Origin: Halorussus litoreus
Lineage (GTDB): Archaea; Halobacteriota; Halobacteria; Halobacteriales; Haladaptataceae
DNA length: 44,040 bases
Assembly (NCBI RefSeq): GCF_003382685.1
Contig: NZ_QLVG01000051.1
Coordinates: forward strand, 1 to 44,040
Direction: 5' to 3'
Within the stretch, counting starts at the first letter, position 1. Every line of letters starts with the position of its first letter. The position numbers were made by a program, and so were the translations under genes. The notes beneath the pieces are model-generated. The model saw only the letters and a program-made list of their open reading frames with translations, had not been told where the DNA came from and did not search any database. This document shows, piece by piece, positions 4,296-37,143 of this stretch.

Positions 4296-6116
4296 ATGAG
4301 CGACTCCGACGCTGATGTCCCCGACCCGGAGGAGTCGGTCCGAGAGGCCGTCGAACGCTCCCGGAGTGGCGCGCCGGCGGTCGGCTCGGTCGTCCGCGAC
4401 CGGTTCTCCTCGGACGAGATCTTCCAGCGGATCATCGCGGCTGCCGACGAGGAGATCACCTCGAGCAGCCGCGAGTTGTTCTTCAGCGCGCTCGCGGCCG
4501 GGTTCGCGATCACCATCACGTTCATGCTGTACGTCTCGCTGACCGTCTCGACCGGCGGCGACCCGGTGTTGAGCGCGCTGCTGTACCCGCTCGGGTTCAT
4601 CTACATCATCATCGGCGGCTACCAGCTGTACACCGAGAACACGCTCCCGCCGGTCGCGCTGACGCTCGAACGGCTCGCGAGCATCCCGGCGCTCCTGCGC
4701 AACTGGGCGGTCGTGCTTGCCGGCAACTTCGTCGGCGGAGCATTCGGCGCGGCCGCGCTCGCGTTCGGCGGCGTGCTCTCGCCCGAAGCCGCCGCCGTCG
4801 CGGCCGACCTCGGTCACAAGGGCGTCGAAACTGGATGGTGGAGCCTGTTCGCGAAGGCCGCGTTCGCCGGGCTCATCGTGGCGGGGGTCGTCTGGGTCGA
4901 GTACGCCGCGCGGGACACCATCTCCCGGCTCGCCGTGGTGTACATCGCATTCCTGTCGATCCCGCTCGGCAACCTCTATCACTCCGTGGTCTCGTTCACG
5001 GAGATGACGTATCTGGTGCTGCTCGGCGACCTCGCGCTCGCGGTCGGGATGGTCGAGTTCGTCCTCCCGGTCCTGCTGGGCAACACCCTCGGCGGCGTCC
5101 TGCTCGTCACCGTGGTCAACTACTTCCAGACGACCGAACACCGGCTCGAGTCCGCCCGCTTCGAGGGCGCACAACGTCAGCTCTCGATCCGGGAGTGGCT
5201 GCTGGGCGGGCTCGCCGGGCGCTCGTACGTCCCGCTGGTCGACACCGGCGAGGGGACCGAACTCGACCACCCCGGCGGCCACCGGGTCGTCGTGCCGATC
5301 TCGAACCCCCGCGCCGAGACCAACCTCGTGGAACTGGCGTGTACGCTCGCCAGCCGGGAGGAGGGCGCGAGCGTTCACATCGTCCACGTCGTCCAGATGC
5401 CCAAGCGAATGCCGCGGGGCTACAACGCCGACCGGACCGAGCGCATCGTCGACACCTCGGACGCACAGATGGAGGGCCTGCGCGGGATCGCGGGAAGCTA
5501 CGACGTCGATTGCGAGACCTCGACGGTCGTCTCCCACCGCTCGTTCGAGGAGATATTCAATATCGCCGAGCGCGAGCGCGCCGACGTGGTCGTGATGGGC
5601 TGGGGAGAAGACCGGCTGTGGTCGGCCGGTCGGGCCGAGCGCCCCATCGACGAACTCGCCAGCCGACTGCCGGCCGACTTCCTCGTGTTCAAAGACCGCG
5701 GATTCGACGTTTCGCGCGTCCTCCTCCCGGTCGCTGACAACGCCCACGCCGACCTGAACGCCGAGGTCGCGCGTGCGCTCCAGCGGGCCGCCGGGACGGC
5801 GGTCACGCTGATGCGGGTCGTCGACGGCTCCGACGAGCGCGAGGCGGGCGAGCAGTTCCTCGCCGACTGGGCCGCCGACCACGGCCTCGAAGACGCGGCG
5901 CGCGTGGTCGACGACACGGGTGACGTCGAGCGAGCGATCTCGCGGGAGGCGGACGACCACACGCTGTTGCTGGTCGGCGCGACCGAGCAGGGACTGCTCG
6001 CGCGGCTCGTGACCGGGTCGCTGCACTTCGACGTGCTCGACCGCATCGACACCTCGCTGCTGCTGGCCGAGCGAGCGACCGACCGCAGCCTCTTCGAGCG
6101 ACTGTTCGGCCGATAG
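4296..6116 (+). CDS. Formate/nitrite transporter (FNT) channel fused to two universal-stress-protein domains
   Basis: A 606-residue protein with an acidic N-terminal tail (1-40), an FNT-like membrane domain at about 40-300 with six hydrophobic segments, and two Usp-type alpha/beta domains at about 345-475 (HRVVVPISNPRAETNLVELA, HIVHVV, ADVVVMGWG) and 478-600 (SRVLLPVADNAHADLNAEVA, LMRVVD, TLLLVGATEQG). The FNT pore histidine seems kept in NLYHSVVSF, which aligns by eye with the FocA His region. FNT channels carry formate, nitrite or similar small anions; Usp domains bind nucleotides. The fusion suggests a cytoplasmic sensor or gate. The start at MSDSDADVPD is preferred because a TATA-like ACGATTAGT lies about 29 nt upstream; a start 51 nt further upstream is possible. 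Confidence 0.9.
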   Translation: MSDSDADVPDPEESVREAVERSRSGAPAVGSVVRDRFSSDEIFQRIIAAADEEITSSSRELFFSALAAGFAITITFMLYVSLTVSTGGDPVLSALLYPLGFIYIIIGGYQLYTENTLPPVALTLERLASIPALLRNWAVVLAGNFVGGAFGAAALAFGGVLSPEAAAVAADLGHKGVETGWWSLFAKAAFAGLIVAGVVWVEYAARDTISRLAVVYIAFLSIPLGNLYHSVVSFTEMTYLVLLGDLALAVGMVEFVLPVLLGNTLGGVLLVTVVNYFQTTEHRLESARFEGAQRQLSIREWLLGGLAGRSYVPLVDTGEGTELDHPGGHRVVVPISNPRAETNLVELACTLASREEGASVHIVHVVQMPKRMPRGYNADRTERIVDTSDAQMEGLRGIAGSYDVDCETSTVVSHRSFEEIFNIAERERADVVVMGWGEDRLWSAGRAERPIDELASRLPADFLVFKDRGFDVSRVLLPVADNAHADLNAEVARALQRAAGTAVTLMRVVDGSDEREAGEQFLADWAADHGLEDAARVVDDTGDVERAISREADDHTLLLVGATEQGLLARLVTGSLHFDVLDRIDTSLLLAERATDRSLFERLFGR

Positions 6117-9576: not shown

Positions 9577-9580
9577 TTTG

Positions 9581-9720
9581 GGTGGATGAAAGGGGCCGCC
9601 AGCTCGCGAGCCGCAGGCCCGTGGTCGTCTCAGCGCGGCCACTATTCGCGGCTCGGGCGGTGCGGAGTGAGCCGCGAATATCCCGCTGAGCGACCGCGAG
9701 CGGGCGGGGGCTTTCTAACC
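9581..9720 (-). ncRNA. Structured repeat element family A, copy 1 (candidate RNA)
   Basis: On the minus strand it begins TTAGAAAGCCCCCGCCCGCT and ends CCCCTTTCATCCACCC. GAAAG pairs with CTTTC. Inside are GGTCG/CGACC, CTCAGCG/CGCTGAG and the conserved A-TATTC...GAATA core, with an apical GCGGCTC-type hairpin. The internal loop is the larger variant (GGA opposite GTGGCC) also seen in copy 4. It lies in the divergent gap between the HFX_2341-type gene and the DUF2240 gene. On its 5' side (9721-9920) is a low-complexity stretch rich in ACNGCN triplets that resembles the 5' flank of copy 5. Confidence 0.72.
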
Positions 9721-10870: not shown

Positions 10871-10952
10871 AGCACCCAAGTTCTCGAAAGCCCTCGGCGC
10901 GCTCTCCGACAACCGAACAGCACCCAAGTTCTCGAAAGCCCTCGGCGCGCTC
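10871..10952 (+). repeat. 34-bp direct repeat duplicating the 5' end of element copy 2
   Basis: Identical 34-bp segments at 10871-10904 and 10919-10952, each beginning AGCACCCAAGTTCTCGAAAG and ending GGCGCGCTC. Each contains the GAAAGCCC start of element family A, so the 5' arm is duplicated just before the degenerate copy 2. Confidence 0.8.
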
Positions 10953-11045
10953 GACCGGCCGGGACTCGCTGCGCTCCTCGGCTTTCGGCCTGCGGTGCTT
11001 ACTTCGTCCGGGCCGGGTCGAGCGCGCTTCGCCCTTTCATCCGCC
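10934..11045 (+). ncRNA. Structured repeat element family A, copy 2 (degenerate)
   Basis: Starts GAAAGCCCTCGGCGCGCTCG and ends CGCCCTTTCATCCGCC. The outer arms still pair (GAAAG/CTTTC; GCGCGCTCGACC against GGTCGAGCGCGC), but the conserved ATATC/GATAG core and 9-bp helix are gone, replaced by a GCTGCGCTCC...GGCCTGCGG stretch. Located between convergent genes. Confidence 0.6.
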
Positions 11046-11059
11046 AGGGGAGCAACTGG

Positions 11060-12424: not shown

Positions 12425-13354
12425 TCAGTTCTCGGCCAGCGCCTCTCGCAGCGACCCCATCTCCGCGACGCGCTCGGCGTGAGCATTATGTTGATGAATC
12501 GACTCGTCGTTGCTCTGCTTCATCGTCACCACGGCGTCGTCGGGCAGGTCCGGGAACGTCGTGACCACGCCTTTGGCCATGTCGCGCACGCAGTCCTCGA
12601 CGAACTTGGCGTTCGCGTGGGCCTCGAAGGTCATGTGGTCCTCGTCGGGGCGCTTGGCGAGGTTGTAGATGCGAGCGCTCATCGAGTCGCGGGCAGTAGC
12701 GATGAGTTCGTCGAGGTTCACCTCGGGCGCGCCCCCGCTCTCGACCGTGAGGGTGGCGTGCCCGCGCTGGGAGTGGCCCGCCTGCGGGACCTCCTGCAGG
12801 AACTCCTCGACCTCCTGTTCGCCCACGCCCAACTCCGCTAGCTTCTCGCGGGCGGTCGCGCTCATCATCCCTTGCGAACAGGGACACACTGTCATCCCGG
12901 TGACGCGCGCGCCGATCTCCTCGCGGGTCCCCTCCTCGGTCGCGGTCGCACCGGCGATGATGTCGGCGGTGGCCTGCGTCGGGCGGTCGCTCGCGGGCGT
13001 GCGGTCTTTCAGCATGTACTCGGCCTCCATCCGGACCTCGGCCTTCGTGGTGTAGTCGTGCTTCTCGAGCAGGCGCTCGGCGGCCTCGCCGCAGACGTCT
13101 TCGACGCGGTAGGTGGGTTCGCTCACCGCGTCTTCGAGGATCTCGTCGACGACCTCCATGTTGCGGCTCATGTCCGCGCCCTTCCGCCAGCCCGGCAGGT
13201 CGACCAGCACCTCGAACTCCGCGGTCAGCACGATGGGTCGCTTGTCGGTCCGGGCGAGTTCGACCAGCTTCTTGACGCCCGTCACGCCGACGCGGTTGAG
13301 ACCGACGCTCACGTCGGGCTCGGACGCCTGCACGTCCGGCAGTTGCTCGTCCAT
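12425..13354 (-). CDS. mptA: GTP cyclohydrolase MptA (archaeal type IV)
   Basis: A 309-residue Fe(II)-dependent GTP cyclohydrolase. MptA converts GTP to 7,8-dihydroneopterin 2',3'-cyclic phosphate, the first step of pterin synthesis for tetrahydrofolate or methanopterin in archaea. Diagnostic segments: [20 protein letters not shown] at the N-terminus, [36 protein letters not shown] with the conserved Cys pair, and [20 protein letters not shown]. Full length for the family. The ATG at 13354 places the conserved DVQ segment near the N-terminus. The neighbour nadK lies 87 bp upstream on the same strand. Confidence 0.97.
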
Positions 13355-13441: not shown

Positions 13442-14263
13442 TCAGTCCAGCTTCCCGAGCGCCTCGAAGAAGTCACTGGCGGGCTCGGCGATGCGGGTCG
13501 GCTCCTCGGCCGCCCGGACGGTCACTCGCTCGGGCATCTCGAAGCGCTTGCGGGTGCTGTCGCTACTGACGTAGCCGAAGTCGGCTCCGCGGACCCGAAT
13601 CTCGACCTCGGCGTCGTCGCGCGCGACCAGCGCCGGCATCGACTCGGCGGCGCTCATCTCCGTGACGACCAGCGCGTCCACGTCGGGGTGGACCAGCGGC
13701 CCGCCCTCACTCAGGTTGTAGGCGGTGCTTCCGGTCGGCGTCGACACCAGCAGGCCGTCAGCGTGGCCGGTGTCGAATTCGTGCCCGTCGACCCGGACCT
13801 CGTAGTCGAGCCCGCGTCCGTGGCCGCGCTGGGGCCCCTGGACCACGATCTCGTTTATCGCCGGGTGGAGGCTCCAGTCGCCCTCGCCCACGGCTCGGAC
13901 GCGGGGCACCTCCCGGCAGGGAATCGTGTCAGTCTCTCGATACCCGGCGACCACCGCCGCGACCGTCTCGACGGCGTCGTCCGGCGGGACGGCGTTCAGG
14001 AAGCCGACCTCGCCGAGGTTGACCCCGAGGATCGGGGTGGCCGCCGCGCCGCGCGCCGCGAACAGGAAGGTGCCGTCACCCCCGATGGAGACCACGAGGT
14101 CGCAGGCGTCCATCTCGTCGACCGGGTAGCCGTCCGCTCCGAGTCGGTCGGCGGTCTCGGCGTCCAACCGGACCGTCACCTCGCTCGGCAACCTGTCGCT
14201 GATGCGCGCGGCGAGCGAGGCGGCCCGTTCGTTGCCCTTCTGGGCGACGATGCCGACGTTCAT
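13442..14263 (-). CDS. nadK: NAD kinase
   Basis: A 273-residue kinase that phosphorylates NAD(H) to NADP(H). GGDGT is at residues 61-65 ([11 protein letters not shown]), with [11 protein letters not shown], the catalytic-loop NEIVVQ and the conserved [21 protein letters not shown], all diagnostic for NadK/PpnK. Length fits the archaeal enzyme. The start at [10 protein letters not shown] is the usual N-terminus; a much longer in-frame upstream extension is Arg-rich and antisense in character, so rejected. Divergent from the KaiC-like gene (116 bp). NADP supply fits the general biosynthetic context, but there is no specific operon partner except possibly mptA downstream. Confidence 0.97.
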
Positions 14264-18904: not shown

Positions 18905-19001
18905 GATAGCTTTCGTCAGACAGTCGAGTTTTTCGAGGTTTGACGCAGTGAAGATACTGTCCAGTAAGAGGTATCGACGAGAGGTCTGCGAGAGAGGTCT
19001 C

Positions 19002-19020
19002 GAAAGCCCCCGCCCGCTCG
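19002..19020 (+). repeat. Orphan 5' fragment of element family A
   Basis: GAAAGCCCCCGCCCGCTCG repeats the first ~19 nt of element copies 1, 4 and 5, but is followed by unrelated sequence (TAGACCCTTTGG). It lies 75 nt before copy 4, a situation like the duplicated 5' arm at copy 2. Confidence 0.5.
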
Positions 19021-19076
19021 CTAGACCCTTTGGCCAGTCTCCTCACACCAGCGACAATTGTGAACGAGAACATTTT

Positions 19077-19203
19077 GAAAGCCCCCGCTCGCTCGCGGTC
19101 GCTGTGCGGGATATCTCGCGGGCGCAGAACTGCGCCCGCGAGATAGTAGCCACGCACAGGCGACCAAGTAGAACGCGAGCGAGCGGCCCCTTTCAGTCCA
19201 CCC
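19077..19203 (+). ncRNA. Structured repeat element family A, copy 4
   Basis: Starts GAAAGCCCCCGCTCGCTCGC and ends GGCCCCTTTCAGTCCACC. The lower stem CGCTCGC/GCGAGCG, GGTCG-like and GCGACC arms, and CTGTGCG/CGCACAG helix (again different from other copies but paired) lead to the A-TATC...GATA core. The apical stem is a perfect 16-bp hairpin, TATCTCGCGGGCGCAG with loop AA (19112-19145). The internal loop is the larger variant. Located between convergent genes (18904 and nurA). Confidence 0.75.
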
Positions 19204-22410: not shown

Positions 22411-22479
22411 ACTACGCCGGCAGATGGAAGTGGAGAAAGACTGCGCCGTTCCCGTGACAATCAGGGTCGAAAACGGTTA

Positions 22480-22673
22480 GAAAGCCCCGCCCGCTCGCGG
22501 TCGCTCAGCGACATATCCTCGCTCGCTGTCGCTCGCCGACAGACGGTCCTCGTCGCGTTGCTCCTCGGCTGCGACTGCCGAGGTCACACTCGCTTCGCTC
22601 GCGTGACCGCTCGGATAGGGGTCGCTGAGACGACCGAACTGAACGCGAGCGGGCGGCCCCTTTCAGTCCACCC
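22480..22673 (+). ncRNA. Structured repeat element family A, copy 5 (long apical domain)
   Basis: Starts GAAAGCCCCGCCCGCTCGCG and ends GGCCCCTTTCAGTCCACC. GGTCG (22499-22503) pairs with CGACC (22631-22635) and CTCAGCGAC (22504-22512) with GTCGCTGAG (22621-22629). A22513 faces GGG (22618-22620), then TATCC pairs with GGATA. The apical region is about 94 nt with its own palindromes (GTCACACTCGCTTCGCTCGC), the longest of all copies. It lies in the divergent gap between idi and carB. Confidence 0.8.
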
Positions 22674-33505: not shown

Positions 33506-33602
33506 GCGCGAACGGTGGGCATCGCGGCCTAACTACCCTTCGGCTTTCGAGGGAGAGAACGGGAGTGTACTGCCGCGATTCGTCGGCCGAATTCGTGTCC
33601 TC

Positions 33603-33731
33603 GAAAGCCCTCGGCGCGCTCGCGGTCGCTGAGCGACATATCCTCGGTTCGCTTCGCTCACCTCGGATAGGGGTCGCTCAGACGACCACGGGCCTGCGGC
33701 CCGCGAGCCCGCCTCGCCCTTTCAGTCCACC
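33603..33731 (+). ncRNA. Structured repeat element family A, copy 6
   Basis: GAAAG (33603-33607) pairs with CTTTC (33719-33723); GGTCG (33624-33628) with CGACC (33683-33687); CTGAGCGAC (33629-33637) with GTCGCTCAG (33673-33681). A33638 faces GGG (33670-33672) and TATCC (33639-33643) pairs with GGATA (33665-33669). The tail is CCCTTTCAGTCCACC. A 3' sub-stem GGGCC..GGCCC is also present. It lies in the divergent gap between gpmI and the dehydrogenase gene. Confidence 0.8.
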
Positions 33732-33747
33732 AGGACCGCAGTTGGTC

Positions 33748-36490: not shown

Positions 36491-37143
36491 GGGTGTTGCA
36501 CGGGATCGGTCACGGGGGTTTCAGCGGTTCGGTCATGGCTGCCGGGGAGTGTTCGGGATGGGTCGATGCTCGCCCGGGAGGAGTAAGGGTCTTTTCACCG
36601 GAGCGAGAAGAGCCGCGTGGCCGATGACGAGGCGCGCGCTCCGAGCTGGTCTCGGCAACCAGTCGTGACGAGCCCTATGAGTGCCGAGGCCAGCTTTCTA
36701 CCCATACATTTCCGAGGAGAAGTGACCGTACGTCATCGAATCGCGGCTGCTACCCTCTGAGAGAGGACAGCTGTCGATAGAGGTTGATTTGAGCTCACGC
36801 TATGCGGTGACATAGGGGATGTCATCTTAAAAAGAAATTTCCGAGGAGGGATACTGGGCCTACTCCTAGTCTCCTCCACGAAGTCGGGGATATCGATTTC
36901 CACTGGACAGGACCGAATTCCCCGGCGTAACCATTCTAAACACTGGATTTTGCCCGATAACAACGCTATTCAACAGAGCACACTGCGCATAGCTGGACGA
37001 TTCAGGTGACCGAGAGCGAGACTGGTGGTTCCCGGTTCGAGATTTACGATTTCGAATCCGTGGAGTCAATCGGTTGGAGGGCCCAATCTGTCCTGACGAA
37101 CTCATACTCTGCTACGGTTGCCGAAACGAAATGCGGGTAGTGA
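36491..37143. other. 650-bp AT-richer gap, possible decayed mobile element
   Basis: No intact gene. From about 36700 the composition falls toward AT. TTTCCGAGGAG occurs twice in direct orientation (36710 and 36838), with AAAAAGAAA before the second. On the minus strand the frame around 36850-36963 reads LEWLRRGIRSCPVEIDIPDF followed by VEETRSRPSIPP, which looks like a genuine protein fragment and could be the N-terminus of a haloarchaeal transposase. GTTGAATAGC near 36970 could be an IS end. Nothing here is certain. Confidence 0.35.

Follow-up and report, generated by a model that had tools for sequence, protein, structure and literature searches.

In the one haloarchaeon with a detailed account that we could find, small repeats carrying no transposase gene abound, and that account calls their mobilization enigmatic (PMC3119063). 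For instance, the SMR-A repeats of Haloquadratum walsbyi (HqIRS42, HqIRS43 and HqIRS55) are about 110 bp long and have inverted terminal repeats; they have no transposase gene, up to 54 copies and no evident target duplication, and they insert mostly into PATEs and IS605-type transposons (PMC3119063). 'SwitchRepeats' have been described in the same genus, where distinct repeats occupy one position (PMC3119063). A second group comprises the REP and REPIN sequences that go with TnpA-REP (RAYT) proteins. These are 20 to 40 bp long with GTAG or CGTC tags, a Y1 transposase going with the GTAG types (PMC8266576, PMC3733652), and the TnpA-REP of E. coli depends on a bulge within the hairpin that it acts on (PMC8266576).

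The element considered here occurs in eight copies in a 44,040-bp stretch of the Halorussus litoreus genome (the window; contig NZ_QLVG01000051.1, positions 1 to 44,040). Set beside it by description rather than by sequence, the small mobile repeats of Haloquadratum appear to be its closest known kind: SMR-A is about 110 bp long and the present element 115 to 140 bp, and both have inverted ends, no transposase gene and tens of copies (PMC3119063). The swapping of two interiors, cores A and B, at the gpmI-qor site recalls the SwitchRepeats (PMC3119063). However, SMR-A elements mostly enter PATEs and IS605-type transposons and the copies here appear to lie in ordinary intergenic stretches, and the internal loop and the link to an OB-fold gene described below find no mention in the available part of the SMR-A account (PMC3119063). 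With REP and REPIN sequences the element shares its nature as an intergenic imperfect palindrome with a conserved bulge and inverted doublets, and a processing as folded single-stranded DNA like theirs is proposed for it; it differs in its length of 115 to 140 bp, its GAAAG and AGTCC ends and the lack of a Y1 transposase in its own genome (PMC8266576, PMC3733652). No description of the element or of its link to an OB-fold module was found in the open-access literature, which was mostly screened at the level of titles and abstracts. The finding is more general than the window alone would reveal. Its structural consensus, two exchangeable cores and link to a mobile OB-fold gene are testable handles, since they specify the folded strand and the invariant base and point to a protein that is a candidate for binding. 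Should the OB link fail, what remains would be covarying DNA palindromes spread over the class, with arms that change and loops that survive.

A conserved loop in a covarying hairpin

Copies in the window were located with a covariance model, R1, built from 25 copies of the Halorussus litoreus genome (Table 1). Copy 6 is a 130-bp imperfect hairpin whose flanking genes we take, from their reading frames, to be gpmI-like and qor-like. In its fold (window coordinates), the unpaired A33638 faces GGG at 33670-33672, and the adjoining TATCC (33639-33643) pairs with GGATA (33665-33669). The 151 bases around the loop fold far better than shuffled sequence on both strands, with z = -3.8 on the loop strand and z = -4.9 on the opposite strand, and none of 200 shuffles was as good in either case. 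A sequence-only reading of the window had counted eight copies, a number that the covariance model returns, and had placed an A facing GGG in copies 3, 5, 6, 7 and 8, each of which does have this loop, that of copy 6 at the stated coordinates. It had also assigned copies 1 and 4 a larger related loop, GGA facing GTNGCC. The larger form is real but that pairing is not the best one; by our own pairing, an A faces GTGG or GTAG and a one-base bulge lies two pairs below. The A/GGG loop or its 4-nt form is thus present in seven of the eight window copies.

Table 1. Positions in the window of the eight copies, of two isolated element parts and of the conserved features of copy 6
Feature	Position	Strand	Evidence or frequency
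Copy 1, core A, 4-nt loop form	9579..9718	-	covariance model + sequence
Isolated 5' part of element, 48 bp before copy 2	10882..10902	+	tandem duplication
Copy 2, core B, ends as in core A, interior distinct, A/G-N-G loop absent	10931..11046	+	weak match, 25 bits
Copy 3, core A, A/GGG loop	11926..12042	-	covariance model + sequence
Isolated 5' part of element, upstream of copy 4	18998..19024	+	sequence
Copy 4, core A, 4-nt loop form	19074..19203	+	covariance model + sequence
Copy 5, core A, A/GGG loop, terminal hairpin with large insertion	22477..22673	+	covariance model + sequence
Copy 6, core A, A/GGG loop, divergent gpmI-like/qor-like intergenic region	33600..33732	+	covariance model + fold
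P1 5' arm GAAAG, first conserved bases of element (copy 6)	33603..33607	+	alignment
Invariant unpaired A of internal loop (copy 6)	33638	+	106/106 aligned copies
GGG facing the A; family consensus G-N-G (copy 6)	33670..33672	+	G-N-G 98/106, GGG 59/106
P1 3' arm CTTTC (copy 6)	33719..33723	+	alignment
Conserved unpaired 3' tail AGTCC (copy 6)	33724..33728	+	alignment
Copy 7, core A, A/GGG loop	39796..39922	+	covariance model + sequence
Copy 8, core A, A/GGG loop	41811..41939	+	covariance model + sequence

The consensus comes from an alignment to R1 of 106 matches at E<=1e-10, taken from 98 chosen sources that bear 20 genus labels; one genus supplies 38 of the copies. The hairpin rises from P1 (GAAAG/CTTTC) through a fixed CCC/CC asymmetric loop to P2, which covaries freely. 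Above P2 come the GTCG/CGAC helix, fixed and with one bulged base, then P4 and the A/G-N-G loop with its flanking TAT/ATA, and at the top a tip that varies; the AGTCC tail follows on the 3' side. GAAAG/CTTTC and the P2 arms form prominent inverted terminal repeats. Most copies measure about 115 to 140 bp, and those with insertions reach about 200 bp. Pairing is kept in 97.3% of 3373 cells, a score that is favored by the fitting of the alignment to the structure under test; controls with slid partners are only 34 to 42% paired. Both sides have changed in 24 of the 32 pairs, amounting to 372 such cells where shuffles give 92 +/- 9.

Conservation is unevenly spread over this scaffold. The mean is 1.81 bits for the loop A, G and G and 1.82 bits for the TAT/ATA beside them, compared with 1.05 bits for P4, 1.04 bits for the next P5 pairs and 0.87 bits for the lower P2, and values weighted by genus agree. 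Other positions are about as fixed as the loop, namely P1 (1.89 bits), the CCC/CC loop (2.0 bits), the GTCG/CGAC helix (1.69 bits) and the TCC of the tail (1.93 bits). The scaffold thus covaries freely but for several fixed patches, of which the loop is one. These figures qualify what had been proposed from the window alone. The A is invariant throughout the alignment, whereas the GGG opposite it is replaced in many copies by the looser G-N-G. The helices do vary freely where they adjoin the loop, in P4 and the next P5 pairs, but P1 and GTCG/CGAC are about as conserved as the loop itself. That the loop would stand out from its adjoining helices in a wider alignment did prove right, and a constrained recognition site is therefore likely. 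Its description as the functional core goes too far, since P1, CCC/CC and the 3' tail are fixed to the same degree and a second family with the same ends has another core. Judged from these patterns, the A/G-N-G loop looks like one recognition patch and not the whole function.

Two exchangeable cores

The second core, core B, has the same ends as core A around an interior with GCTGCGC(G/T)CCTC and GTGCTT and no A/G-N-G loop, and it occurs in several genera. A strict core-B pattern is found four times in the Halorussus litoreus genome, copy 2 included. Cores can be exchanged at a given place: at the gpmI-qor site of a relative (G197), a core-B element lies between the same ends as copy 6, and two OB-fold modules of one genome (L148 and L149) have different cores ahead of alike genes. 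With a second family that has the same ends and a different core, the A/G-N-G loop is dispensable for family membership. What had been called a functional core would more aptly be described as a recognition mark, conserved within one of the two interchangeable cores of this mobile DNA hairpin of haloarchaea. Near copy 2, a 48-bp tandem duplication (window 10884 and 10932) takes in the flank and the first bases of the copy.

Dispersal and mobility

The Halorussus litoreus genome (3.84 Mb in 75 contigs) holds 77 R1 matches at E<=1e-3 and, by row count, 59 at E<=1e-10; a congener has no strong match. Across the class, 141 of 194 genomes match R1 at E<=1e-3, a threshold at which weak matches to GC-rich palindromes may be due to chance, and among the matches listed the best reaches E<=1e-10 in 51 of the 194. 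Copy numbers outside the Halorussus litoreus genome are lower bounds because R1 was trained on that genome and the wide searches score few candidates per genome. In a sample of the phylum, 6 of 120 genomes match at E<=1e-6, all six from the same order as Halorussus litoreus. Phages gave no match to the element, and viral contigs gave no exact match to one core pattern and no relative of the OB module.

Copy 8 offers a closer view of one element. It has a near twin on contig C4 that is about 97% alike over 127 bases, and the likeness starts at TTTT before GAAAG and stops at AGTCC. The corresponding place in four relatives with conserved neighbors (L187, L188, L190 and L192) contains no R1 match, and in a fifth (L189) only a match at the level of chance (E 0.012). 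The relatives are only about 70 to 85% alike there, and at this divergence no exact empty site was found among them; no consistent target duplication was seen around copy 8 and its near twin or at the ends of the OB module. Elements can also lie close together. In four genomes (G136, G077, G050 and G154), all 19 of the 19 element pairs less than 500 bp apart, as read off the match list, are inverted with their tails facing. The spacers of these tail-to-tail pairs range from about 20 to 305 bp, and eight pairs were inspected in sequence.

The hairpin as the left end of an OB-fold module

On Haloarcula plasmids, about 500 bp separate one element from a downstream gene annotated 'SOSS complex subunit B', whose product matches archaeal SSB/RPA OB folds in its C-terminal part. 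The archaeal SSB/replication factor A proteins (NCBIfam PRK07217, PDB 2kbn) are alike in this C-terminal OB fold. However, the module protein scores only 64 to 71 bits against PRK07217, far under the family cut-off of 353 bits, has a helical N-terminal part of its own and sits on a mobile unit. An AlphaFold model of the protein has a mean pLDDT of 62, being fair for the OB fold and the helical part and of low confidence for the rest, and it speaks only weakly against a hidden catalytic domain.

Searches with the protein and with an alignment turned up many loci; 278 relatives were reported, of which 80 named loci (L241-L320) were kept. In 79 of these 80 OB-gene loci, totaling 532 kb, some of them near duplicates, R1 gives 49 matches at E<=0.01; 47 of the 79 loci have a match upstream on the same strand, one per locus, and only 2 further matches lie elsewhere. 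The hairpin starts about 540 to 790 bases before the OB gene. A stricter count by regular expression puts the hairpin upstream in 31 of 78 loci, the controls being 1 downstream, 2 antisense and 2 reversed; the model count is preferred because the regular expression missed evident copies. Counted from the start of the gene, homology between unrelated contexts runs from about -650 to +1010 and thus defines a module of about 1.6 kb, which begins at the hairpin and stops about 110 to 140 bp after the gene, behind a short conserved right end. The two modules of the Halorussus litoreus genome (L141 and L142) have nothing in common outside this unit in the stretches compared. Since homology is confined to the unit in unrelated contexts, the module moves as a unit. 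What is new here is that the hairpin forms the left end of this mobile module, which encodes an SSB/RPA-like protein. No transposase was seen in it. A MITE of a known insertion sequence may be compared, given that the module has the same left end, and the OB-fold protein is its only coding content as far as seen.

Several further observations concern these modules. The SSB/RPA-like module is found on plasmids and chromosomes across haloarchaea. In L141-L151, the roughly 500 bp between hairpin and OB gene appear noncoding and hold further conserved blocks (about 115 bp) that are kept between genera. One contig (L139, G173:C4) has three partial hairpins without P1, matching in the core only (4716-4770, 12717-12771 and 13537-13593), near two OB-fold genes. 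Two loci in genomes of different families (L137/L138; G154 contig C6 and G024 contig C14) look identical in the element and the OB protein where compared, which would reflect either recent plasmid exchange or contamination.

Folded DNA or RNA

On balance, we lean toward the loop being part of a small mobile haloarchaeal DNA element that acts as folded DNA. One strand of the 115 to 140 bp (up to about 200 bp) would fold into the long imperfect hairpin, and the unpaired bases and fixed pairs, at their set heights, would probably be protein contacts. The contacting protein may recognize, cut or join the folded strand and tell it from its opposite. The sequence-only reading had suggested a protein- or ligand-binding site or a cleavage site, and a protein-binding site in folded DNA seems, from sequence patterns, a better fit than either a ribozyme or an RNA that binds a ligand.

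Some of the evidence also speaks for a structured RNA, either a leader element or a small RNA, whose A/G-N-G loop would bind a protein or ligand or be the point of cleavage. Covariation is strong, unpaired bases are more conserved than the adjoining helices, and the hairpin keeps its place about 0.5 to 0.8 kb ahead of OB-fold genes and on their strand. The nature of the mispairs bears on this question. In functional RNA helices, G-U pairs are expected on the sense strand, and A-C mismatches should be rarer. Across 113 elements, isolated mispairs comprise 28 G-U, 44 A-C and 105 transversions in the 83 with core A, and 23 G-U, 15 A-C and 64 transversions in the other 30. Over all pairs of the 106-copy alignment there are 62 G-U and 48 A-C, a balance that comes from one helix-end pair being G-U in 44 of 102 cells, itself a point for an RNA. 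This pair and one other helix-end pair together hold 46 G-U and 17 A-C, and once both are set aside the count falls to 16 G-U against 31 A-C. Apart from these two pairs there is no G-U excess on either strand, which favors selection or correction at the level of DNA over an RNA, although few G-U pairs may be possible anyway in a GC-rich genome. In Rfam, no covariance model matched over the element at its gathering score. Neighboring genes lie in all orientations, and the fall from 77 copies to no strong match in a congener is not what an RNA would lead one to expect. An RNA is thus unlikely, and on the missing Rfam match and wobble bias we set it aside.

The near-perfect complementarity of the arms could also stem from template switching between them. 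Template switching would erase irregularities unless they were selected, and the persistence of the same loops, we infer, argues for their use. Another possibility is that the element is a host DNA site, such as a landmark for the nucleoid, replication or repair. Recombination would copy it, template switching would keep its arms complementary, and selection for a bound protein would keep its loops. Arms that are nearly perfect Watson-Crick complements and yet retain the same irregularities would fit such a site, as would the exchange of cores between the same ends and the spread of elements in genomes without a candidate mobilizer. Against it stand the strong differences in copy number between congeners and the movement as a unit of a module with the hairpin at its end, and we find a host site rather improbable.

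A bolder form of the mobile DNA reading, which we also hold to be rather improbable, makes the hairpin and OB-fold module a new type of transposon without a recognizable transposase. The SSB/RPA-like protein and the conserved unpaired marks in the folded single strand (A/G-N-G in core A, GCTGCGC..GTGCTT in core B) would steer insertion by host replication or repair enzymes, and solo hairpins would be its non-autonomous offspring. If true, it would account for those small mobile repeats of haloarchaea that have been called 'enigmatic'.

Candidate mobilizers

The full-length OB-module protein is present in the Halorussus litoreus genome, G147, G171, G175, G024, G035, G050, G079, G068, G138, G161 and G164, with a partial-profile match only in G077, G136, G094, G123, G127, G166, G173 and G080. 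Its presence and the number of solo elements do not go together: G077 (27 matches), G136 (47) and G094 (14) are rich in elements with neither a full-length OB protein nor a Y1 transposase, and G024, with its two OB modules, lacks any strong core-A solo. The three element-rich genomes without it dismiss the OB protein as sole mobilizer; it may be at most a partner in movement, or have been lost in some lineages.

Y1 transposases (Y1_Tnp, PF01797) were found in 9 of the 17 genomes searched. One of the IS200/RAYT type could in principle move the element in trans by reading its folded strand, as with REP and REPIN sequences, and the imperfect hairpin, the conserved irregularities and the conserved unpaired tail are all features that such a repeat would have. 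The 19 of 19 close pairs (less than 500 bp, four genomes) that lie tail to tail are arranged as REP doublets often are. However, no Y1_Tnp match was obtained in the Halorussus litoreus genome (G000) or in G147, G077, G136, G094, G164, G123 and G024, and the conserved ends contain no GTAG or CGTC tag. Absent from the element's own genome, the Y1 transposase is rejected as mobilizer, and a repeat of this kind is very unlikely.

A role as transcription terminator is dismissed by the position of copies 1, 5 and 6 between divergent genes and by neighbors in all orientations. With genes predicted by a home-made caller, the gene on the 5' side of the element points away from it in 53 of 74 cases, and in 34 of 47 in a second count, made up of 19 of 26 in the Halorussus litoreus genome (p 0.03) and 15 of 21 in others (p 0.08). 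Apart from the element, the plus strand of the window carries a match to the sR-tMet C/D box RNA (RF02163, 59.7 bits) at 36619-36691.
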